Assembly (NCBI RefSeq): GCF_009498035.1
Contig: NZ_CP034550.1
Coordinates: 8,990,001-9,054,000 of the forward strand
Length of the DNA stretch: 64,000 bases
Reading direction: 5' to 3'
Source of the DNA: Saccharothrix syringae
GTDB lineage: Bacteria; Actinomycetota; Actinomycetes; Mycobacteriales; Pseudonocardiaceae
Position 1 is the stretch's first letter. Every line of letters starts with the position of its first letter. Shown here piece after piece: positions 18,917 to 26,602 of the stretch. The notes under the pieces were generated by a model. It made no database searches. It was not told the origin of the DNA and worked only from the letters and a program-made list of their open reading frames with translations. The position numbers and the translations under genes were made by a program.

Positions 18917-18920
<4 letters not shown>

Positions 18921-21727
18921 ACCCGGAGAACGACGCCACGAAGGACGCCGCCGAGCGCCGGTTCGTCGAGGCGTATCATATGCCCGAGGGCATGCCCAGG
19001 CACGAGGCGCTGGAGCGCGCGGCGCGGGCCGCGGACGCCGTCGACCACCTGCCGCTGGGCGTGAGCTGCCGGATCGCGCTGATCCGCTCGGCCTACGACC
19101 TGGGCCGCTACGACCTGATGCTCGCGCCGTTCGCGTGGTGCGGCACGGCCGAGCAGCGCGACCCGACCGCGTTCGACGACTGGGAGCTGCACAGCTTCGA
19201 CTGGGCGCACAAGTGGATCGTGTCCGGCCTGCTGGCCGACCCCCGGTTCACCCTGGCCCAGATCGGCTCGTTCGTCGACCAGCTCGCGTCGCGCTACCAG
19301 CGGCTCGGGTACTCGATGCAGCCGGTGCACGGCGCCCGCGCCGAGCTGGCCGCGCACGTCGGCGACGACGAGGCGTACCGGGAGCACTTCGCGCGCTACC
19401 TGGCCACCGACCGGGGGCCGATGAGCGACTGCGAGGCGTGCGTGGTGGAGGAGCAGGCCGGGCACCTGATCCGGCAGGGCCGCCACGCCGAGGCCGTCGC
19501 GCACGCCGAGCACCAGTTGGCGCGCGACACCGGCTGCGCGACCCAGCCGCAGGGCATCCTGACCACGCTGACGCCCGCGTTCGTGGCGCTGGGCGAGCTG
19601 GACCGGGCCCGGGACGCGCACGTGGTCGCGCACCGGCTGGTCCGCGACGACCTCGTCGGCGGCTACCTGGACGACCACCTGGTGTTCTGCGCGACCTCCG
19701 GCAACGTGGCGCGGGGCGTGGAGCTGCTGCGCGCCCACCTGCACCGGGTGCACCACTCGACCAGCCCGTCCCGGGCCATGGACTTCGCCGCGGGCGCGGC
19801 GCTGCTGCTGAGCCGGGTGGACGGCGCCGAGGAGTTCACCGTGCCGCGGGACGGGATCACCACCCCGGTGCGCGCGGCCGAGCTGCGCGCGCAGCTGGAG
19901 GAGCTGGCGCTGGGGATCGCGGAGCGGTTCGACCGGCGCAACGGCACCGACGCGGTGAGCAGACGGGTCCGGCAGACCCTGGCCACCCCGGACACCGCGC
20001 CGGTGCCGCTGGTCGTGCCGGTCGCCGCGCCCGCGCCGCCCGAGTCCGCCGAGGAGGAACCCCCGGTGGAGGTCGCCGACCCGGTGGAGCTGGCGCGGCG
20101 GATGTGCGACGCGTTCGACCGCGGCGAGTTCACCACCGGCATGCGGCTGCTGCGGTCGCTGCCGCCGGACCTCGACCCGCTGCTGCCCGAGTCGCTGGCC
20201 GCGCTGGTCGCGGCGCGCCGGGCCATCGTCGCCGGGCACTCGCGCCCCCAGGACGAGGTGCTGGCCGAGCTGGGCGCGGCGGTCGACCGGCTGGTCGCGT
20301 GCGGCGAGCACGACCTGGCCAACCGGTACCGGGCGCGGGGCGCCTCGCTCCTCGGCGAGGAGGAGGGCGTCGCGGCGGCCCGCGCGTGCCTGGCCGAGGC
20401 GGACGCCGCCGGCACCCCGTACACCAGGGTGCTGACCAGGCTGCTGCTGGCCGACCTGCTGGCCGAGGGCGACGACGGCGAGTCCGACGAGCCGCGCGTG
20501 CTGGCCGCCGAGGCGCTGGGGCTCGCGGAGGGGGGCGCGCCGGAGCTGGTGGCGCGGGCGCGGTGCGACCTGGCCCAGCACCTGGCCACCACCGGTCGGC
20601 TCGACGAGGCGCAGGACGAGGTGACCGACGTGCTGGTCGGCGACCCGTCCGCGTCCGTGCGGTTCGACGCGCTGCGGCTGCTGCTGAAGATCCAGACCGT
20701 GCGGGGCGACGAGGCGGCGGTGGCCACGGGCGCGGAGTTCGTCGGCTCGTTCAGCTCGCCGCGCGGGCCGTGGACGGCCGAGGCGCACCGGCAGCGGGTG
20801 GCCTCGATCGAGCGGCTGGGCCTGGAGGCCGAGCACCTGGCGGAGCTGCGCGACGCGGTGGCCGCGGGCCGCGAGGTAGGCGTGCCGGACGACGTGGCCA
20901 AGGCGTGCTACGCGCTGGCGGGCGGCTACCTGAAGGCCGGTCGGTTCGTGGAGGCCGCGGAGGTGCTGGAGGAAGCGGTCCGCGTGATCGGCACCGACGA
21001 GGTCGACCCGGACGCGGTCGTGCCCGTCCACTACCGGCTGGGCCAGGTGTGCGCGCGGCTGGACGAGACCGAGTCGGCGCGGCGCCACCTGGAGACCGCG
21101 CTGGGCCTGGTGCCGCCGGACGAGCCGTGGCGGCGGGCGATGGTGCTGGACGTGCTGGCGGGCGTCCTGCGGCGGCTGGACCGCCCGCGGGAGGCGGCCT
21201 CGGCCTACCAGGGCGCGGCGGCCGGGTGGCAGGAGGTCTCGGAGTTCGCCGAGGCGGCGGGTTCCCTGGTCGAGGCGGCGGCCGCGCTGCCCGACGAGGA
21301 GGCGGCCGGGTGCGCCGCCGTGCTCGCCTCGGCCGAGGCGCTGCTGCCGCGGGTCGAGGACGTCGAGCAGCGCACCCACCTGACCGCGCGGATCGCCGCG
21401 ATCCGGGCGTTCCTGCACGGCCAGTCCGGCGACCTCACCGCGGCGGTCGAGCAGAACGGCGTCGCCGAGGAGTTGGCCGCCCAGCTCGGCGACGACACCT
21501 GGCGGACGTTCCTGGTCACGCGCGGCGCGCGCTTCCTCCTCCAGGCGGGCGACCCGGCCAACGCCGAGGCCGAGGCCCGCCGCGCGGGCACCCTGATCAC
21601 CGACGACACCCCGCTCCAGCTCCTCGGCGACACCGCCAACGTCCTGGAAGAGGCCCTGCGCACCCAGTCCAAACCCACCACCGGCGACCCACTCCTGCGA
21701 GCCCTGCAGTCCCGCCTGGACTCCTGA
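18917..21727 (+). CDS. Large tetratricopeptide-repeat protein, partner of HSP90-like protein
   Basis: 936 residues, alpha-helical throughout. TPR-like helix pairs are visible, e.g. ACYALAGGYLKAGRFVEAAEVLEEAVRVIG, VHYRLGQVCARLDETESARRHLETALGLVP, VLDVLAGVLRRLDRPREAASAYQGAAAGW in the last third. The N-terminal 330 residues form a second helical block (MPEGMPRHEALERAARAAD and on), joined to the C-terminal block by a Pro/Val/Ala-rich linker (about residues 355-385). GTG at 18917 overlaps the upstream stop by 3 bp. Eukaryotic HSP90 uses TPR co-chaperones, so an HSP90-TPR pair is a reasonable inference; no catalytic motif was seen here. Confidence 0.85.
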
Positions 21728-21773
21728 CCCGCACCCACGCCCGGGCCACGCGGCCCACCCACGTGCCCCGGGC

Positions 21774-21861
21774 GTGTCCTCCACTCAGACACCGCGAGTC
21801 GAACGTTCAGGACCCTCGTGTCGAACGTTCGGGACCCCTGAGTTCCACGTTCGGGCCCAGC
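21774..21861. repeat. Tandem array of four degenerate 22-bp units (site 1)
   Basis: Four 22-bp units begin at 21774, 21796, 21818 and 21840 with the cores GTGTCCTCC, GAGTCGAAC, GTGTCGAAC and GAGTTCCAC. The spacing is exactly 22 bp each time. The units lie between the convergent TPR gene and tsnR and are followed by the tsnR 3' end. The first unit is 21/22 identical to a reverse-complement unit at site 2 (24875-24896). Confidence 0.85.
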
Positions 21862-21877
21862 GGGACGACCCGGGCGT

Positions 21878-22645
21878 TCAGGCGCGTTGGGCGCGGGCCG
21901 AGGCGTAGAGGCAGACGGCGGCCGCCGTGGCGAGGTTCAGGCTCTCGGCGCTGCCGTAGATCGGGACCTTGAGGGCGGCGTCGAGGCTGTCGACGACCTC
22001 GTCGGGCAGCCCGTGCGCCTCGCTGCCGAACACCCACGCCGTGGGCGCGGCCAGGTCACCGCGCAGGTCGGCGGTCACCAGGTCCTCCGGCGCGTACCCG
22101 TCGGCGGCGACCAGGCGCAGGCCCGCGCCCCGCAGGGCGGCGAACACCCCGTCCGCGTCCCGCGCCCGCGCGATCGGCAGGTGGAACACGCTGCCCGTGG
22201 ACGCGCGCACGCACTTGCCGTTGTGGGGGTCGACCGCGTCGCCGGCGAAGACCACCGCGTCGGCACCGGCCGCGTCCGCGACGCGCACCACCGTGCCCGC
22301 GTTGCCGGGGTCCGCCACGCCGTGCAGCACCGCCACCAGCCGCGGCCCGCCCGCCAGCGCCACGTCCAGCGGCACGTCCACCGACGAGCACACCGCGACC
22401 ACGCCCTGCGGCGTCACCGTCTCCGACAGCACGGCGGCGGCCTTGTCGGTCACCCCGCTCACCCGCACCCCGGCGGCCGCGGCCTCCCGCACCAGCTCGG
22501 GGTTGCGGGCCCCGGCCGTGGCCGTGACGAACAGCTCGTGCACCCGGCCGCGCCCGGCGGCGGCCCAGGCCAGCGCCTCGCGCACCGCCTGCGCGCCCTC
22601 GGCGAGGAAGCGCTCCGCGCGGTCGCGACCGGAACGCCTGGTCAA
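21878..22645 (-). CDS. tsnR: TrmH/SpoU-family RNA 2'-O-methyltransferase
   Basis: SPOUT-class RNA ribose methyltransferase. Motif 1 VLHGVADPGNAGTVVRVADAAGAD, motif 2 WVFGSEAHGLPDEVVDS and motif 3 VPIYGSAESLNLATAAAVCLYA form the knot. 255 residues from TTG at 22645. However, the frame continues upstream through FTERTPRVVAARRLTRRSGRDRA, a segment typical of this family, and the only codon that could start it is CTG at 22726, overlapping the rplT stop. The true protein may therefore be 282 residues (21878-22726). Position after infC-rpmI-rplT matches mycobacterial tsnR. The exact RNA target is unknown. Confidence 0.9.
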   Translation of the reverse strand: MTRRSGRDRAERFLAEGAQAVREALAWAAAGRGRVHELFVTATAGARNPELVREAAAAGVRVSGVTDKAAAVLSETVTPQGVVAVCSSVDVPLDVALAGGPRLVAVLHGVADPGNAGTVVRVADAAGADAVVFAGDAVDPHNGKCVRASTGSVFHLPIARARDADGVFAALRGAGLRLVAADGYAPEDLVTADLRGDLAAPTAWVFGSEAHGLPDEVVDSLDAALKVPIYGSAESLNLATAAAVCLYASARAQRA

Positions 22646-22722
22646 CCGCCGAGCGGCAACGACCCGGGGAGTCCGTTCGGTGAACGGAGCATCCCCGGGT
22701 CGTGGTGCGCGTTCGTCCGCGC

Positions 22723-23112
22723 TCAGACCTTGTCCTCGACCGGCGCGTTGACGTCGCTGGGCAGGGCGGCCTTGGCGGCCTCCACCAGCGCGGTGAACGC
22801 ACCCGCGTCGTTGACGGCCAGCTCAGCCAGGATCTTGCGGTCCACCTCGATGCCCGCGAGGCGCAGGCCCTGGATGAAGCGGTTGTAGGTCATGCCGTTG
22901 GCACGCACGCCCGCGTTGATGCGCTGGATCCACAGCTTGCGGAAGTCACCCTTGCGGGCGCGGCGGTCCCGGTAGGCGTAGTTGAGCGAGTGGAGCACCT
23001 GCTCCTTGGCCTTGCGGTACAGCCTCGAACGCTGGCCGCGGTAGCCGCTGGCGAGCTCAAGGGTGGTACGGCGCTTCTTCTGGGCGTTCACTGCCCTTTT
23101 GACGCGTGCCAC
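22723..23112 (-). CDS. rplT: 50S ribosomal protein L20
   Basis: 129 residues, [79 protein letters not shown]: the complete L20 family core. GTG start at 23112. Binds 23S rRNA early in 50S assembly and in some bacteria represses its own operon. Third gene of the infC operon, 62 bp after rpmI. Confidence 0.98.
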
Positions 23113-23174
23113 GGGTCCATCCTGTCGATCTCGTGGGGCCGGTCAGGCCCCGGGTGTTCATGGGGACGCGGGTC

Positions 23175-23369
23175 TCAGATACCCAGCAGCTTCTTGATGC
23201 GCGACGCGTCGTTCTTGGCGACTTCGGTCGTGCCGGAGAGACGGCGGGTGAGCTTGCTGGACTTCTTCTCCAGCAGGTGGCGCTTGCCGGCCTTCTCGCG
23301 GACCAGCTTGCCGCTGCCGGTGACCTTCACGCGCTTGGAGGTCCCGCTGTGGCTCTTGTTCTTGGGCAT
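23175..23369 (-). CDS. rpmI: 50S ribosomal protein L35
   Basis: 64 residues: [50 protein letters not shown], the standard L35 sequence. The ATG at 23369 is chosen over an upstream in-frame start because L35 begins MPK. Sits between infC and rplT. Confidence 0.98.
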
Positions 23370-23468
23370 TAGTCGTCCTTGGTCTCGTGCAGCCACCGGG
23401 GGTAAGGGCGGCCGTGCCTGCTCCCGGGCCCAGGGGCCCGGGAGGTCACCGGCCCGAGGGCCGGGAGA

Positions 23469-24065
23469 TCACTGTTCGACGACGTCGTCCGCCTGGGTCT
23501 CCTGCTTGACCGGGCGGGTCTTCGTCGTCTTGTGCGGGGCCAGCACCATGATCATGTTGCGGCCGTCCTGCTTCGGGTTGGACTCGACGAACCCCAGCTC
23601 CGCGACGTCCTCCGCGAGCTTCTGCAGCAGTCGGTAACCCAACTCCGGCCGGGACTGCTCACGGCCGCGGAACATGATGGTCACCTTGACCTTGTTCCCG
23701 TGCGACAGGAAGCGGGCCACGTGGCCCTTCTTCGTCTGGTAGTCGTGCGGGTCGATCTTCGGGCGGAGCTTCTGCTCCTTGATGACCGTCAGCTGCTGGT
23801 TGCGACGCGACTCACGGGCCTTCTGCGCGCTCTCGTACTTGTACTTGCCGTAGTCCATGAGCTTGCAGACCGGCGGCCGAGCCTGCGCGGCGACCTCGAC
23901 GAGGTCGAGATCCGATTCCTGGGCGAGTCGGAGCGCGTCCTCGATGCGAACGATCCCGACCTGCTCGCCGTTCGGCCCGACCAGTCGAACCTCGGGCACG
24001 CGGATGCGGTCGTTGATGCGCGGCTCGGTGCTCGCGGGAGCACCTCGGTTCGAGGGACTTGTCAT
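23469..24065 (-). CDS. infC: Translation initiation factor IF-3
   Basis: 198 residues. N-domain [63 protein letters not shown], linker and C-domain [30 protein letters not shown]. Prevents premature subunit joining and checks start codons. ATG at 24065. First gene of infC-rpmI-rplT-tsnR and preceded by a terminator-like leader hairpin. Confidence 0.98.
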
Positions 24066-24093
24066 TCACGTCCTTTGTGACTCGTTGTGCGCC

Positions 24094-24130
24094 AAAGACA
24101 AGAGGCCCCACACCTGCCCGGTGTGAGGCC
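24094..24130 (-). promoter_or_regulatory. Attenuator-like hairpin in the infC leader
   Basis: On the minus strand GGCCTCACAC, a 7-nt loop (CGGGCAG) and GTGTGGGGCC form a 10-bp RNA stem in which one pair is a U-G wobble, directly followed by TCTTGTCTTT. It lies 29-65 nt upstream of the infC ATG. A hairpin followed by a U-rich run before a ribosomal-protein operon is the layout of transcription attenuation. The wobble pair would be a C-A mismatch on the other strand, which supports a function in the infC transcript. Confidence 0.65.
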
Positions 24131-24238
24131 CGCTTCCGACCGATCGCACAACGAAGGGCGCAGTCCACCCCTCGCAGGACCGGACCCGGCCACCTGCTCG
24201 AAGCGGCAGACTCGGGTGGGAGCGGGGCTCCACTTGCC

Positions 24239-24258
24239 GTCCCCACACGGGTGGGGAC
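24239..24258. promoter_or_regulatory. Upstream hairpin in the infC leader
   Basis: Perfect 8-bp inverted repeat GTCCCCAC-ACGG-GTGGGGAC. It could be part of an alternative leader fold with the terminator-like hairpin at 24104-24130. A TATGAT sequence on the minus strand at about 24269-24274 is the best -10 candidate for the operon; a TTGACA just upstream of it is spaced only 11 bp, so the promoter assignment is tentative. Confidence 0.45.
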
Positions 24259-24340
24259 TGGTCGCTCGAAAAATCATAGCAGACGGTCTTGTCAACCCCC
24301 GAACCGGCGAGCCCACCGGCGGGGTTGCGAGAATGGTCCC

Positions 24341-24682
24341 GTGACCGACCTGCCTCCGAACAACGTCCGCGAGCTGTCCGATGTTCCCAGCGTCGAGGTG
24401 ATCAGCAAGGCGGCGATCATGCTGCTGTCCTCGGCCGCCGAACGGCTCGGCCTGGCCGACGAGGACCCGGCGTCGAGCCCGCACCGGGACCTCGACGAAG
24501 CCCGCCGCCTGATCACCGCCCTGGCCGGCCTGGTCACCGCGTCCGTCGAGTACCTGGGGCCGCACGCGGCGCCGCTGCGCGAGGGGCTGCAGTCGGTGCA
24601 GCGGGCCTTCCGCGAGGCTTCCGCCTACCCCGACGAGCCGGGCCAGGGCCCGGGCGAGAAGTACACCGGCCCCGTCTACTGA
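24341..24682 (+). CDS. DUF1844 protein
   Basis: 113 residues: VTDLPPNNVRELSDVPSVEVISKAAIMLLSSAAERLGL..DLDEARRLITALAGLVTASVEYLGPHAAPLREGLQSVQRAFREAS, matching the actinobacterial DUF1844 family whose gene is often divergent from infC. GTG at 24341 follows GAGAAT by 6 nt and has no ribosome-binding site, so the transcript is probably leaderless. The role is unknown. Confidence 0.88.
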   Translation: MTDLPPNNVRELSDVPSVEVISKAAIMLLSSAAERLGLADEDPASSPHRDLDEARRLITALAGLVTASVEYLGPHAAPLREGLQSVQRAFREASAYPDEPGQGPGEKYTGPVY

Positions 24683-25081
24683 CCCGCCGACCCGCGAGTC
24701 GAACCCCCGGACCTCGCGAGTCGAACCTCCAGGACCCCCGAGTTCCACGTTCGCGCACCGCCTGCCGGTCGCGAACGTGGAACTCGGGGGTCCTGTGCGT
24801 TCGACACGGGGGTGCCGGAGGTTCGACACGGCGGTGCCGAGCGTTCGACTCACGGTGTCGGAGTGGAGGGCTCGCGGTGCCTGAGTGGAGGACACGCGGT
24901 GTTCCAGTGGAGGACACGCGGGGGGTGGGTGGGTACTGGGGGTGGGTGGCCGAAGGGGGTGGGGGTGGTGGCCGAAGGGGGGTGGGCGAGAAGGGTGGGA
25001 CGGCGCGGGAGGGGGAAATAGGGTCTGGAGTCGTTCGCGCGAACCCCTGTCCTTCCGACCCTGCTGGAAGAGAGCGGATCC
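24683..25081. repeat. Opposed 22-bp repeat arrays (site 2) and G-rich upstream region of the subtilase gene
   Basis: The left arm has three units in one orientation (cores GAGTCGAAC 24696, GAGTCGAAC 24718, GAGTTCCAC 24740). The right arm has seven units in the opposite orientation (cores starting 24777, 24799, 24821, 24843, 24865, 24887, 24909). Every step is exactly 22 bp. The two arms meet in a 24-bp perfect inverted repeat (24732-24793). Bases 24930-25030 are strongly G-rich on the plus strand (runs such as GGGTGGGTGGG) and run into the promoter area of the S8 peptidase gene. No gene is supported here; 22 is not a multiple of 3, which argues against a coding repeat. Confidence 0.88.
24732..24793. 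terminator. 24-bp perfect inverted repeat, probable terminator downstream of the DUF1844 gene
   Basis: Arms at 24732-24755 and 24770-24793 are exact reverse complements over 24 bp with a 14-nt loop. It starts 50 bp after the DUF1844 stop. The arms are made from two opposed 22-bp units carrying the GAGTTCCAC core. Confidence 0.75.
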
Positions 25082-26602
25082 ATGGTTGAGTTTCGCGCGT
25101 CCTGGGCTCGGTTAGCGGGTGCCGGCGCGGCTGCGGTGGTGGCCGCGGCGCTGGTGGCGGCACCCGCGCAGGCTGCCGAAGGCGTGGTTCGGGACGCCGG
25201 TGCGCCCGACGCGGTGGCCGGTAGTTACATCGTGGTGTTGAAAGACGCCGTAGGTGTGCAGTCTTTCACCGAGAAGATTGATGCTGAGGTCACGCACCGC
25301 TACAGCGCGGCGGTCAACGGGTTCGCCGCGCGGATGGACGCGGGAGCGGCCCGGAAGCTGGCCGCGGACCCGGCGGTCGCGTACGTGGCGCAGGACCGGC
25401 GGGTGCGCCTGCTCGCGGACCAGCCGAACCCGCCGTCGTGGGGCCTGGACCGCGTCGACCAGCGCGACCTGCCGCTGAACCGCAACTACAGCTACGGCAC
25501 CACGGCGGGCAACGTGCACGCCTACATCATCGACACCGGCATCCGGACCACCCACGCCGACCTGGGCGGCCGGGCCACCTTCGACGCCAACACCACCGGT
25601 GACGGCAACAACACCGACTGCAACGGCCACGGCACGCACGTCGCCGGCACCGTCGGCGGGTCCGCGCACGGCGTGGCCAAGGGCGTCCGCCTGCACGCCG
25701 TCAAGGTCCTGACCTGCGGCGGCTCCGGCACGATCGCGGGTGTCGTGGCGGGCGTGGACTGGGTGACCGCCAACGCGCAGAAGCCCGCCGTGGCCAACAT
25801 GAGCCTCGGCGGCGGCGCCAACGACACCCTGGACGCGGCCGTGCGCCGCTCGATCCTGTCGGGCGTGACCTACGCCGTCGCCTCCGGCAACTCCAACGCC
25901 GACGCGTGCTCGTTCTCCCCCGCCCGGGTGGCCGAGGCCATCACGGTCAACGCCACCGACCAGGCCGACAACCGGGCGTCGTTCTCCAACTGGGGCGGCT
26001 GCACGGACCTGTTCGCGCCGGGCGTCGGCATCACCTCGGCCTGGAACACGGGCGACACCGCCACCAACACCATCAGCGGCACGTCCATGGCCAGCCCGCA
26101 CGCCGCCGGTGCCGCCGCGCTGGTGCTGGCGAACAACCCCGGCGCCACCCCGCAGGTGGTCCGGGACACCCTGGTGGGCGCCGCCACCCCGAACAAGGTG
26201 GTCAACCCGGGCGCCGGCTCGCCGAACCTGCTGCTGTTCACGGGCACCGCGCCGCAGCCCCAGCCGGGCCGCGACACGCTCGTCCGCGGCGAGACGCTGC
26301 AGATCGGCCAGACCAAGGTCTCCCAGGACGGCCGCTACACGCTGGTCATGCAGGGCGACGGCAACCTGGTCCTCTACGCGGCGGGCGGCCAGGCGCTGTG
26401 GCACACCAGCACCTACGGCACGGGCGCGACCTACGCGGTGCTCCAGTACGACGGCAACTTCGTGGTCTACACCGCGGCGGGCGTGGCGAGGTGGCACACC
26501 GGCACCCACGGCACCGCGGCCGACCGGCTGATCGTGCAGAACGACTCGAACCTGGTCCTCTACGGGCCGACCGGGCAGGTGTTCTGGCACCGGCTGCAGT
26601 GA
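25082..26602 (+). CDS. Secreted subtilisin-like serine protease (S8) with C-terminal bulb-type lectin domain
   Basis: 506 residues. Signal peptide 1-32 (hydrophobic core then AQAA), I9-type pro-domain about 46-113 (SYIVVLKDAVGVQSFTEK..VAYVAQDRRV), S8 catalytic domain with Asp151 (IIDTGIR), His183 (NGHGTHVAG) and Ser335 (GTSMASPH). The oxyanion Asn is in ASGNSN. After a Gln/Pro linker (about 392-397) comes a B_lectin domain with three repeats of the QxDxNxVxY type: MQGDGNLVLYA, LQYDGNFVVYT, VQNDSNLVLYG. The lectin part likely binds a glycan or cell wall. Purine-rich ribosome site before ATG 25082. Confidence 0.95.
   Translation: MVEFRASWARLAGAGAAAVVAAALVAAPAQAAEGVVRDAGAPDAVAGSYIVVLKDAVGVQSFTEKIDAEVTHRYSAAVNGFAARMDAGAARKLAADPAVAYVAQDRRVRLLADQPNPPSWGLDRVDQRDLPLNRNYSYGTTAGNVHAYIIDTGIRTTHADLGGRATFDANTTGDGNNTDCNGHGTHVAGTVGGSAHGVAKGVRLHAVKVLTCGGSGTIAGVVAGVDWVTANAQKPAVANMSLGGGANDTLDAAVRRSILSGVTYAVASGNSNADACSFSPARVAEAITVNATDQADNRASFSNWGGCTDLFAPGVGITSAWNTGDTATNTISGTSMASPHAAGAAALVLANNPGATPQVVRDTLVGAATPNKVVNPGAGSPNLLLFTGTAPQPQPGRDTLVRGETLQIGQTKVSQDGRYTLVMQGDGNLVLYAAGGQALWHTSTYGTGATYAVLQYDGNFVVYTAAGVARWHTGTHGTAADRLIVQNDSNLVLYGPTGQVFWHRLQ

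Follow-up and report, generated by a model that had tools for sequence, protein, structure and literature searches.

Two repeat arrays behind gene ends

The window analyzed here is a 64,000-nucleotide (nt) stretch of the Saccharothrix syringae chromosome (contig NZ_CP034550.1, positions 8,990,001 to 9,054,000 of the forward strand; coordinates below count from its first base unless given in kb or Mb), and it carries two intergenic arrays of a 22-bp repeat unit, sites 1 and 2. Site 1 (21774-21861, + strand; unit starts 21774, 21796, 21818, and 21840) occupies the gap between convergent genes coding for a TPR-repeat protein (18917-21727, +) and a SpoU/TrmH-family RNA methylase (21878-22645, -), both of which have their 3' ends toward the array. 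It is a single arm of four units, with the cores GTGTCCTCC (type B, 21774-21795), GAGTCGAAC (type A1, 21796-21817), GTGTCGAAC (type A2, 21818-21839), and GAGTTCCAC (type T, 21840-21861), and there is no mirrored arm between unit 4 and the methylase stop at 21878. Site 2 (24696-24917) is at the 3' end of a DUF1844 gene (24341-24682, +), begins 13 nt past its stop codon, and is followed by an S8 peptidase gene on the + strand. It has ten units in two arms, a forward arm of three units (24696-24761; starts 24696, 24718, and 24740; cores GAGTCGAAC, GAGTCGAAC, and GAGTTCCAC) and, after a two-base gap read from the sequence (24762-24763), a reverse arm of seven units on the - strand (24764-24917; units begin at 24785, 24807, 24829, 24851, 24873, 24895, and 24917). 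From the inside outward the reverse arm reads GAGTTCCAC, GTGTCGAAC, GTGTCGAAC, GAGTCGAAC, GAGCCCTCC, GTGTCCTCC, and GTGTCCTCC, of which GAGCCCTCC, in the unit beginning at 24873, is degenerate.

The original prediction, made from the letters of the window, described four and ten units spaced by exactly 22 bp within each arm, a 21-of-22 identity between one unit of site 1 and one reverse unit of site 2, and a location behind gene ends, once between convergent genes. The unit coordinates bear all of this out: every neighboring pair within an arm is 22 bp apart, and the unit at 21774 differs from the reverse unit at 24895 at only one of 22 positions. The predicted start of site 2 and its ten units also stand, but the array ends at 24917, where the last unit stops, and not at 24930.

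Words, word order, and linkers

Each unit consists of a word, GWGTYNNNC, mostly with a C at unit position 13, and a freer linker. The main word types are M (GWGTCATGC), B (GWGTCCTCC), A (GWGTCGAAC), and T (GAGTTCCAC or GAGTTCTAC), with type A divided into A1, which has GAGT, and A2, which has GTGT. Word order is nonrandom. Among the distinct unit pairs of a genome sample (described below), the window, and loci L001-L030 (L and G numbers denote loci and genomes of our set, with S. syringae as G000), A1 is followed by A2 45 times, A2 by T 33 times, M by M 34 times, B by B 27 times, B by A1 14 times, and M by A1 11 times, and there is a single step from A2 to A1. Architectures include B-A1-A2-T followed by a loop and the mirror arm, T-A-A-M facing M-A-A-T outward, and one-armed M-A1-A2-T-B. 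None of the search patterns specified the C at position 13, yet A1 and A2 both conserve it, and it is present in at least 90% of the 44 rows of our sequence model in each of three units.

When arms are compared with their mirror arms at 23 two-armed S. syringae sites (BLAST loci plus the sample, with GWGT needed at the neighboring unit), the A1 core is identical at 198 of 207 positions and the A1 linker at 132 of 207. Linkers are thus far more diverged than words, which argues that the copies are old and that the words are held by selection. T units overlap an abutting stop codon at the S. syringae sites at 1.369, 8.722, and 10.488 Mb, and in the single-arm arrays at the DUF1844 ends of G001, G002, G005, G018, and G021. 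We also note that the 26- to 28-bp center between outward M or B arms contains AGCGCT in L120, L175, L185, and L188, and does not in L121 and L125; a center of this kind resembles a LacI-type operator.

A genome-wide family with a fixed 22-bp step

The repeat observation is real, and its reported extent was understated. Using site 2 as a DNA query, the S. syringae genome (10,929,570 bp in one contig, with dnaA at position 45) gives at least 91 matches, spread over about 40 places, from the 40 candidates scored out of 275; in many genomes the candidates scored in such searches (17 to 40 where there were matches) were a subset of those available, and the match numbers are therefore lower bounds. 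In a sample of 80 evenly spread stretches (1.594 Mb), GWGTNNNNC words form 39 chains of three or more at lag 22 and none at lags 18-21 or 23-26. The 711 intergenic stretches of the sample contain 38 lag-22 runs of at least three units and 25 of at least four, compared with a mean of 0.05 (maximum 1) and zero, respectively, in 20 dinucleotide shuffles. The prediction had named two outcomes that would count against a family, a unit restricted to the two sites and an equal periodicity in shuffled intergenic DNA; the unit occurs at many sites, and the shuffles lack the period. A motif-free lag histogram of intergenic DNA does not single out 22 (47 gaps at 22, 50 at 15, 40 at 18, and 40 at 30). We read that histogram as dominated by the codon-like and low-complexity matches of GC-rich DNA and rely on the word-anchored tests instead.

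The step is close to invariant, with 153 of 157 neighboring cores within 10 to 36 bp being exactly 22 apart in the sample and window, and the four exceptions (14, 15, 27, and 33) occurring once each. All scored spacings are 22 in three relatives, G022 (12/12), G015 (27/27), and G019 (8/8). Extrapolating from the 25 sampled sites, with the origin-proximal half and the distal half each scaled on its own, gives about 170 sites in the genome, with counting error alone giving a range of roughly 110 to 250. There are no Rfam matches at gathering scores in 21500-25300.

Location and orientation relative to genes

The sampled sites and the window together provide 27 sites, under a rule that requires two recognized words. 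Every one of them lies in a gap bordered by a gene 3' end, 14 between convergent genes, 13 between tandem genes, and none between divergent genes, compared with 216 divergent gaps among 772 background gaps of at least 40 bp (Fisher P = 0.00024). Arrays lie a median of 16 nt from the stop codon; of the 41 facing ends, 31 are no more than 50 nt away (including four overlaps) and the farthest is at 741 nt. Of the 13 tandem sites, 12 are closer to the 3' end. Genes were called with a purpose-written script, which places one array (10.065 Mb) partly inside a gene, probably a miscall. The nearest unit is oriented along the gene at 21 and against it at 20 of the 41 facing ends; a signal read in the flanking transcript should show polarity, and the arrays show none.

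Distribution in related genomes

The site 2 DNA query finds matches in 16 of 40 genomes, all of the same genus, of which 24 were searched (S. syringae included); two of the matching genomes, G009 and G010, are borderline with two matches each. A three-unit sequence model, R1, built from 44 of the 48 listed of 201 candidate triples, detects such arrays in 98 of the 297 family genomes searched, which represent 25 of 46 genera (E values up to 1e-4). Among 296 genomes drawn across the class only S. syringae itself matches and none of the 295 others do, one of which, G094, is a family member. Of 94 loci scored with R1, only L067 and L094 fall below 1e-4, and L089 is missed at that level. The array of L067 uses GTGTCCACC words and has an inner GAAAT unit, and it is matched in three of five Kibdelosporangium-side genomes; that of L094 uses GAGTCGCAC words and is matched in two of six Actinophytocola genomes. 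Spacing is 22 in 32 of 34 cases in Kibdelosporangium, and in Actinophytocola it is 21 in 30 and 22 in 18 of 52. Contexts are 10 convergent, 7 tandem, 2 divergent, and 1 edge among 20 in Kibdelosporangium and 11 convergent, 8 tandem, and 1 edge among 20 in Actinophytocola, both counts including overlapping loci.

Period-22 chains of three are present in G022, G015, and G019, each with its own words, and absent from G009. In randomly chosen stretches the words are mostly CATGC, CGAAC, and CCTCC in S. syringae, mostly CGAAC in G022, mostly CCTAC with some CGAAC in G015, and mostly CGTGC in G019. The Saccharothrix loci L031, L034, L035, L039, and L044 share all 31-mers with, and are, genomes G020, G013, G001, G018, and G005, respectively, and are not independent of them. 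The records titled Rhodococcus rhodnii NRRL B-16535 (L067) and Nocardia sp. NRRL S-836 (L072) may be mislabeled; their TrmH proteins, together with the L067 arrays, fit Kibdelosporangium and Lentzea relatives.

The same gene ends carry exchanged words

Two gene ends can be followed across the 24 genomes of the genus. Downstream of ftsY, which codes for an SRP54-type GTPase (Pfam), an array separates the ftsY stop from a convergent gene in 12 genomes (G000, G001, G003, G005, G007, G008, G013, G015, G018, G020, G021, and G022), that of G007 having one unit per arm and being partly judged by eye. The convergent neighbor is an FMN reductase gene in S. syringae and differs, by eye, in the others. 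On a rapidly built FtsY tree, in which 3 of the 21 inner branches are starred, the ftsY array requires two changes, with none of 500 shuffles as low, and marks a group of 13 genomes (support 88) in which G002 is the sole exception. In G002 and G019 the gene following ftsY runs in the same direction, and the array-less gap is 3 to 30 bp in G009, G011, G016, G017, and G023, 99 bp in G006, and 341 bp in G010. At the DUF1844 end, the site 2 locus, nine genomes have an array, which requires four changes on the same tree (no shuffle control); these classes were partly assigned by eye, with possible remains in G022, G015, G008, and G019 counted as lacking an array.

The words at the ftsY end differ among genomes. 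Outer words are CGAAC in G000, G001, G013, G018, and G022, mainly CCTAC in G005, G008, G015, and G021, CCAAC plus CCTAC in G020, and mixed in G003, in which the two arms differ. A concerted, genome-wide recoding of words is not supported, as two sites of one genome often differ in their words. The genomes of the genus thus draw on a common vocabulary, with words exchanged at individual sites, and one reader that drifts is not the simple explanation.

Several other features lie near site 2. A G-rich run on the + strand directly behind it (24921-24990), with GGGGGTGGGTGGG repeated, may form a G-quadruplex before the S8 peptidase gene, and the palindrome GTTCGCGCGAAC (25033-25044) upstream of that gene is a possible operator. 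In several relatives (L348-L370) the sequence TTCGCGCGAA is present again downstream of DUF1844. A terminator-like hairpin with a T-rich tail on the - strand (24103-24131) is located upstream of a putative infC gene and is possibly an attenuator.

A putative DNA-bound barrier at gene ends

We favor, at a probability of roughly 0.4, the interpretation that sites 1 and 2 belong to a chromosomal family of modular gene-end arrays that one or more putative proteins read as double-stranded DNA and that probably act as barriers. The exact step, the ordered words, the freer linkers, the neutrality to orientation, and the one-armed forms without structure point to recognition as double-stranded DNA, and the position of the arrays downstream of stop codons, where they often fill the space between convergent genes, suggests a barrier or insulator. 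Sequence-specific proteins would read the words and assemble, presumably cooperatively, with a fixed two-turn step into a continuous nucleoprotein patch near the stop codon, and mirrored arms would show the polymerase the same surface from both sides, likely making the patch a barrier or insulator that works in either orientation and separates transcription units that converge or follow one another. The simple candidate for the reader is a protein, or several related ones given the several words. The prediction had offered a protein-binding array, a terminator-derived element, and a nonautonomous mobile repeat; the first fits best in view of the exact spacing, the conserved words with freer linkers, the lack of excess linker pairing (below), and the lack of orientation preference.

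The related proposal that all cores lie on one face of the DNA holds only roughly. Relaxed B-DNA has 10.5 bp per turn, so that 22 bp is 2.1 turns and each core is rotated by about 34 degrees relative to the one before. Over ten units this adds up to almost a full circuit of the helix, unless the DNA is constrained to 11 bp per turn. Iteron arrays and plasmid centromere repeats, such as the 22-bp iterons of R6K, are similar in having tandem words at a fixed helical step, a feature evident in the 153 of 157 S. syringae spacings (protein binding in arrays being the part that we infer here). The gene-end arrays differ from them in occupying many dispersed chromosomal sites, in using several word types per array, and in having mirrored arms.

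RNA hairpins

A rather unlikely alternative is that the arrays act in RNA as bidirectional terminators or 3'-end stabilizers, the mirrored arms forming a long hairpin in either flanking transcript and the 22-nt step corresponding to two turns of A-form RNA. As RNA, region 24690-24836 of site 2 folds at -115 (+ strand) and -121 (- strand) kcal/mol, with z scores of -11 and -12. A near-palindrome must fold so, and a terminator role is retained because the two-armed site 2 forms such a huge hairpin. Several convergent gaps are filled from stop to stop by two-armed arrays, and the array-less ftsY gaps of G004, G012, and G014 hold, by eye, a compact GC-rich hairpin. In contrast, the 88 nt and four units of one-armed site 1 fold no better than shuffles (z scores of 0.07 and 0.31 on the + and - strands), and an RNA hairpin is therefore not the common denominator of the family. 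Twelve of the 27 sites are called one-armed, although one of these (10.76 Mb) has a missed second arm and five adjoin the 124-nt hairpin described below; several sites have outward arms, and Actinophytocola mixes 21- and 22-bp steps.

The lack of covariation in linkers also speaks against pairing. When arms are compared with mirror arms from the same site and from other sites, linkers at the 23 two-armed S. syringae sites are no more alike within than between sites, and cores are alike everywhere. At positions 10-13 of A2 there are 41 matches of 92, fewer than in permuted pairings (56.4 ± 4.7; z score of -3.2), and G is never opposite G at position 10. The 11 Kibdelosporangium sites show excess pairing in none of six tests, and their outer linker has a pairing deficit (P = 0.04). 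Our guess is that avoidance of long perfect palindromes would explain the deficit, an explanation that is post hoc and among some twenty comparisons. A consensus terminator scan of 21600-25100, which covers stems up to 20 pairs and loops up to 8, gives three sites and none in either array. Bidirectional intrinsic terminators of convergent genes are a useful comparison, in that the arrays likewise start just past the stops of both genes, are palindromic, and at site 2 fold very stably. They differ in lacking linker covariation, in having one-armed forms without structure, and in their conserved word order and exact period, and neither the GC-rich stem with a T run of an intrinsic terminator, within the range of that scan, nor its compensatory stem changes, apart from a slight excess in T cores (P = 0.04), were found in the arrays.

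Copying and mobility

Nonautonomous mobile repeats, resembling miniature inverted-repeat transposable elements (MITEs) or repetitive extragenic palindromes (REPs), could also insert close to stop codons and expand through tandem duplication, being tolerated with no host function, word exchange at a site then being the replacement of one copy by another. For the family as a whole we regard this as unlikely; mobility is supported for one compound sub-family. A 124-nt hairpin repeat is present at 13 places in S. syringae (L191-L203; 14.3, 273, 332, 455, and 558 kb, 4.19, 4.50, and 9.26 Mb, and five more), at 12 of which it is followed by a 22-bp array, and its 12 other copies are 93 to 99% identical to the query, indicating that some copies moved or were copied as blocks. 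This hairpin is also the only instance of long inverted ends. Rfam gives it only weak matches to animal microRNA precursors below gathering scores, which we take to be chance hairpins, and we reject a microRNA-type assignment. Adjacent units are sometimes exact copies, as in the alternating 44-bp pairs of L004, which implies tandem growth, and the overlap of T units with stop codons and the different words at different arrays of one genome are also as expected of mobile repeats. For the remaining arrays, however, the divergence of linkers relative to words argues that two-armed copies are not recent, and the ftsY array follows its clade. No target-site duplication was seen, although no systematic search was made.

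The closest described elements are the REPs and bacterial interspersed mosaic elements (BIMEs) that are associated with REP-associated tyrosine transposases (RAYTs; TnpA-REP) (PMC2817692, PMC8266576, PMC3116915). The arrays resemble these in being extragenic, of high copy number, at gene 3' ends, and mosaics of a few modules in both orientations, with sequences that vary among species. They are unlike them in that the module is a 22-bp direct-repeat word and not a hairpin, as the fold of site 1 illustrates, in the exact period, and in that S. syringae lacks a Y1/RAYT gene, and we do not place the arrays among the REP/RAYT systems. Y1/RAYT transposases (PF01797) are present in 10 of 32 genomes, seven with arrays (G013, G015, G019, G020, G040, G041, and G046) and three without (G023, G042, and G047). 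None was found in S. syringae or in 11 other array genomes (G001, G002, G003, G005, G007, G008, G018, G021, G022, G043, and G045), and RAYT transposition thus has no support as the shared cause.

Chromosome architecture

It is very improbable that the arrays mark the origin-proximal half of the chromosome for a structuring protein, as dispersed MatS sites do for MatP: in S. syringae 39 of 40 places (DNA search) and 24 of 25 sampled sites are indeed in that half, but the arrays are not single sites, the bias is absent in G022 (11/19 and 6/10), not significant in G002 (12/18) or G003 (7/8), and otherwise seen in G015 (9/10), counting among the matches listed and with some genome lengths rounded, and the terminus-proximal half may just consist of younger DNA. 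An origin-domain role is accordingly not general among the relatives.

Weighing a protein-bound barrier, and its implications

Several observations weigh against arrays bound by proteins as barriers. No reader protein turned up, although no search aimed at one was made, and the very stable hairpin of site 2 is what an RNA mechanism would want. The T-unit cores show slight positive covariation (274/299; P = 0.04), and the deficit of A2 matches is not predicted. Conservation of GWGT is partly ascertained, since the search patterns require it, with the A1 comparison being the least affected, and block spread of the compound copies also carries word order along. Eight of the 24 genomes of the genus have no match by DNA or model search, and the arrays may merely be tolerated at gene ends. 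Moreover, a single changing protein that read every array would lead one to expect shared words among the sites of a genome. In eight genomes with both ftsY and DUF1844 arrays, a test of two sites with words copied by hand, outer-word overlap is 0.435 within and 0.306 between genomes, and 3,096 of 20,000 random pairings are as similar; G013 and G018 have no outer word common to the two sites, and those of G001 are largely different.

Literature searches of open-licence PubMed Central papers listed none whose title or opening abstract text describes this family. With about 170 sites extrapolated in one genome, and arrays carried by a third of the sampled genomes of the family, it offers a test case for how GC-rich actinomycetes, in which U-tailed terminators are thought to be few, separate their transcription units. 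The same gene ends with exchanged words form a comparative set in which to seek a reader. A bolder proposal, which we consider quite unlikely, is that the arrays are an address system of exchangeable 22-bp words at many gene ends, with a family of DNA-binding proteins whose members lock together every two turns, and with the words at a persistent site swapped as blocks between species. If true, this would be a new mode of insulating neighboring genes, and a rich natural experiment in the joint change of readers and many dispersed sites.

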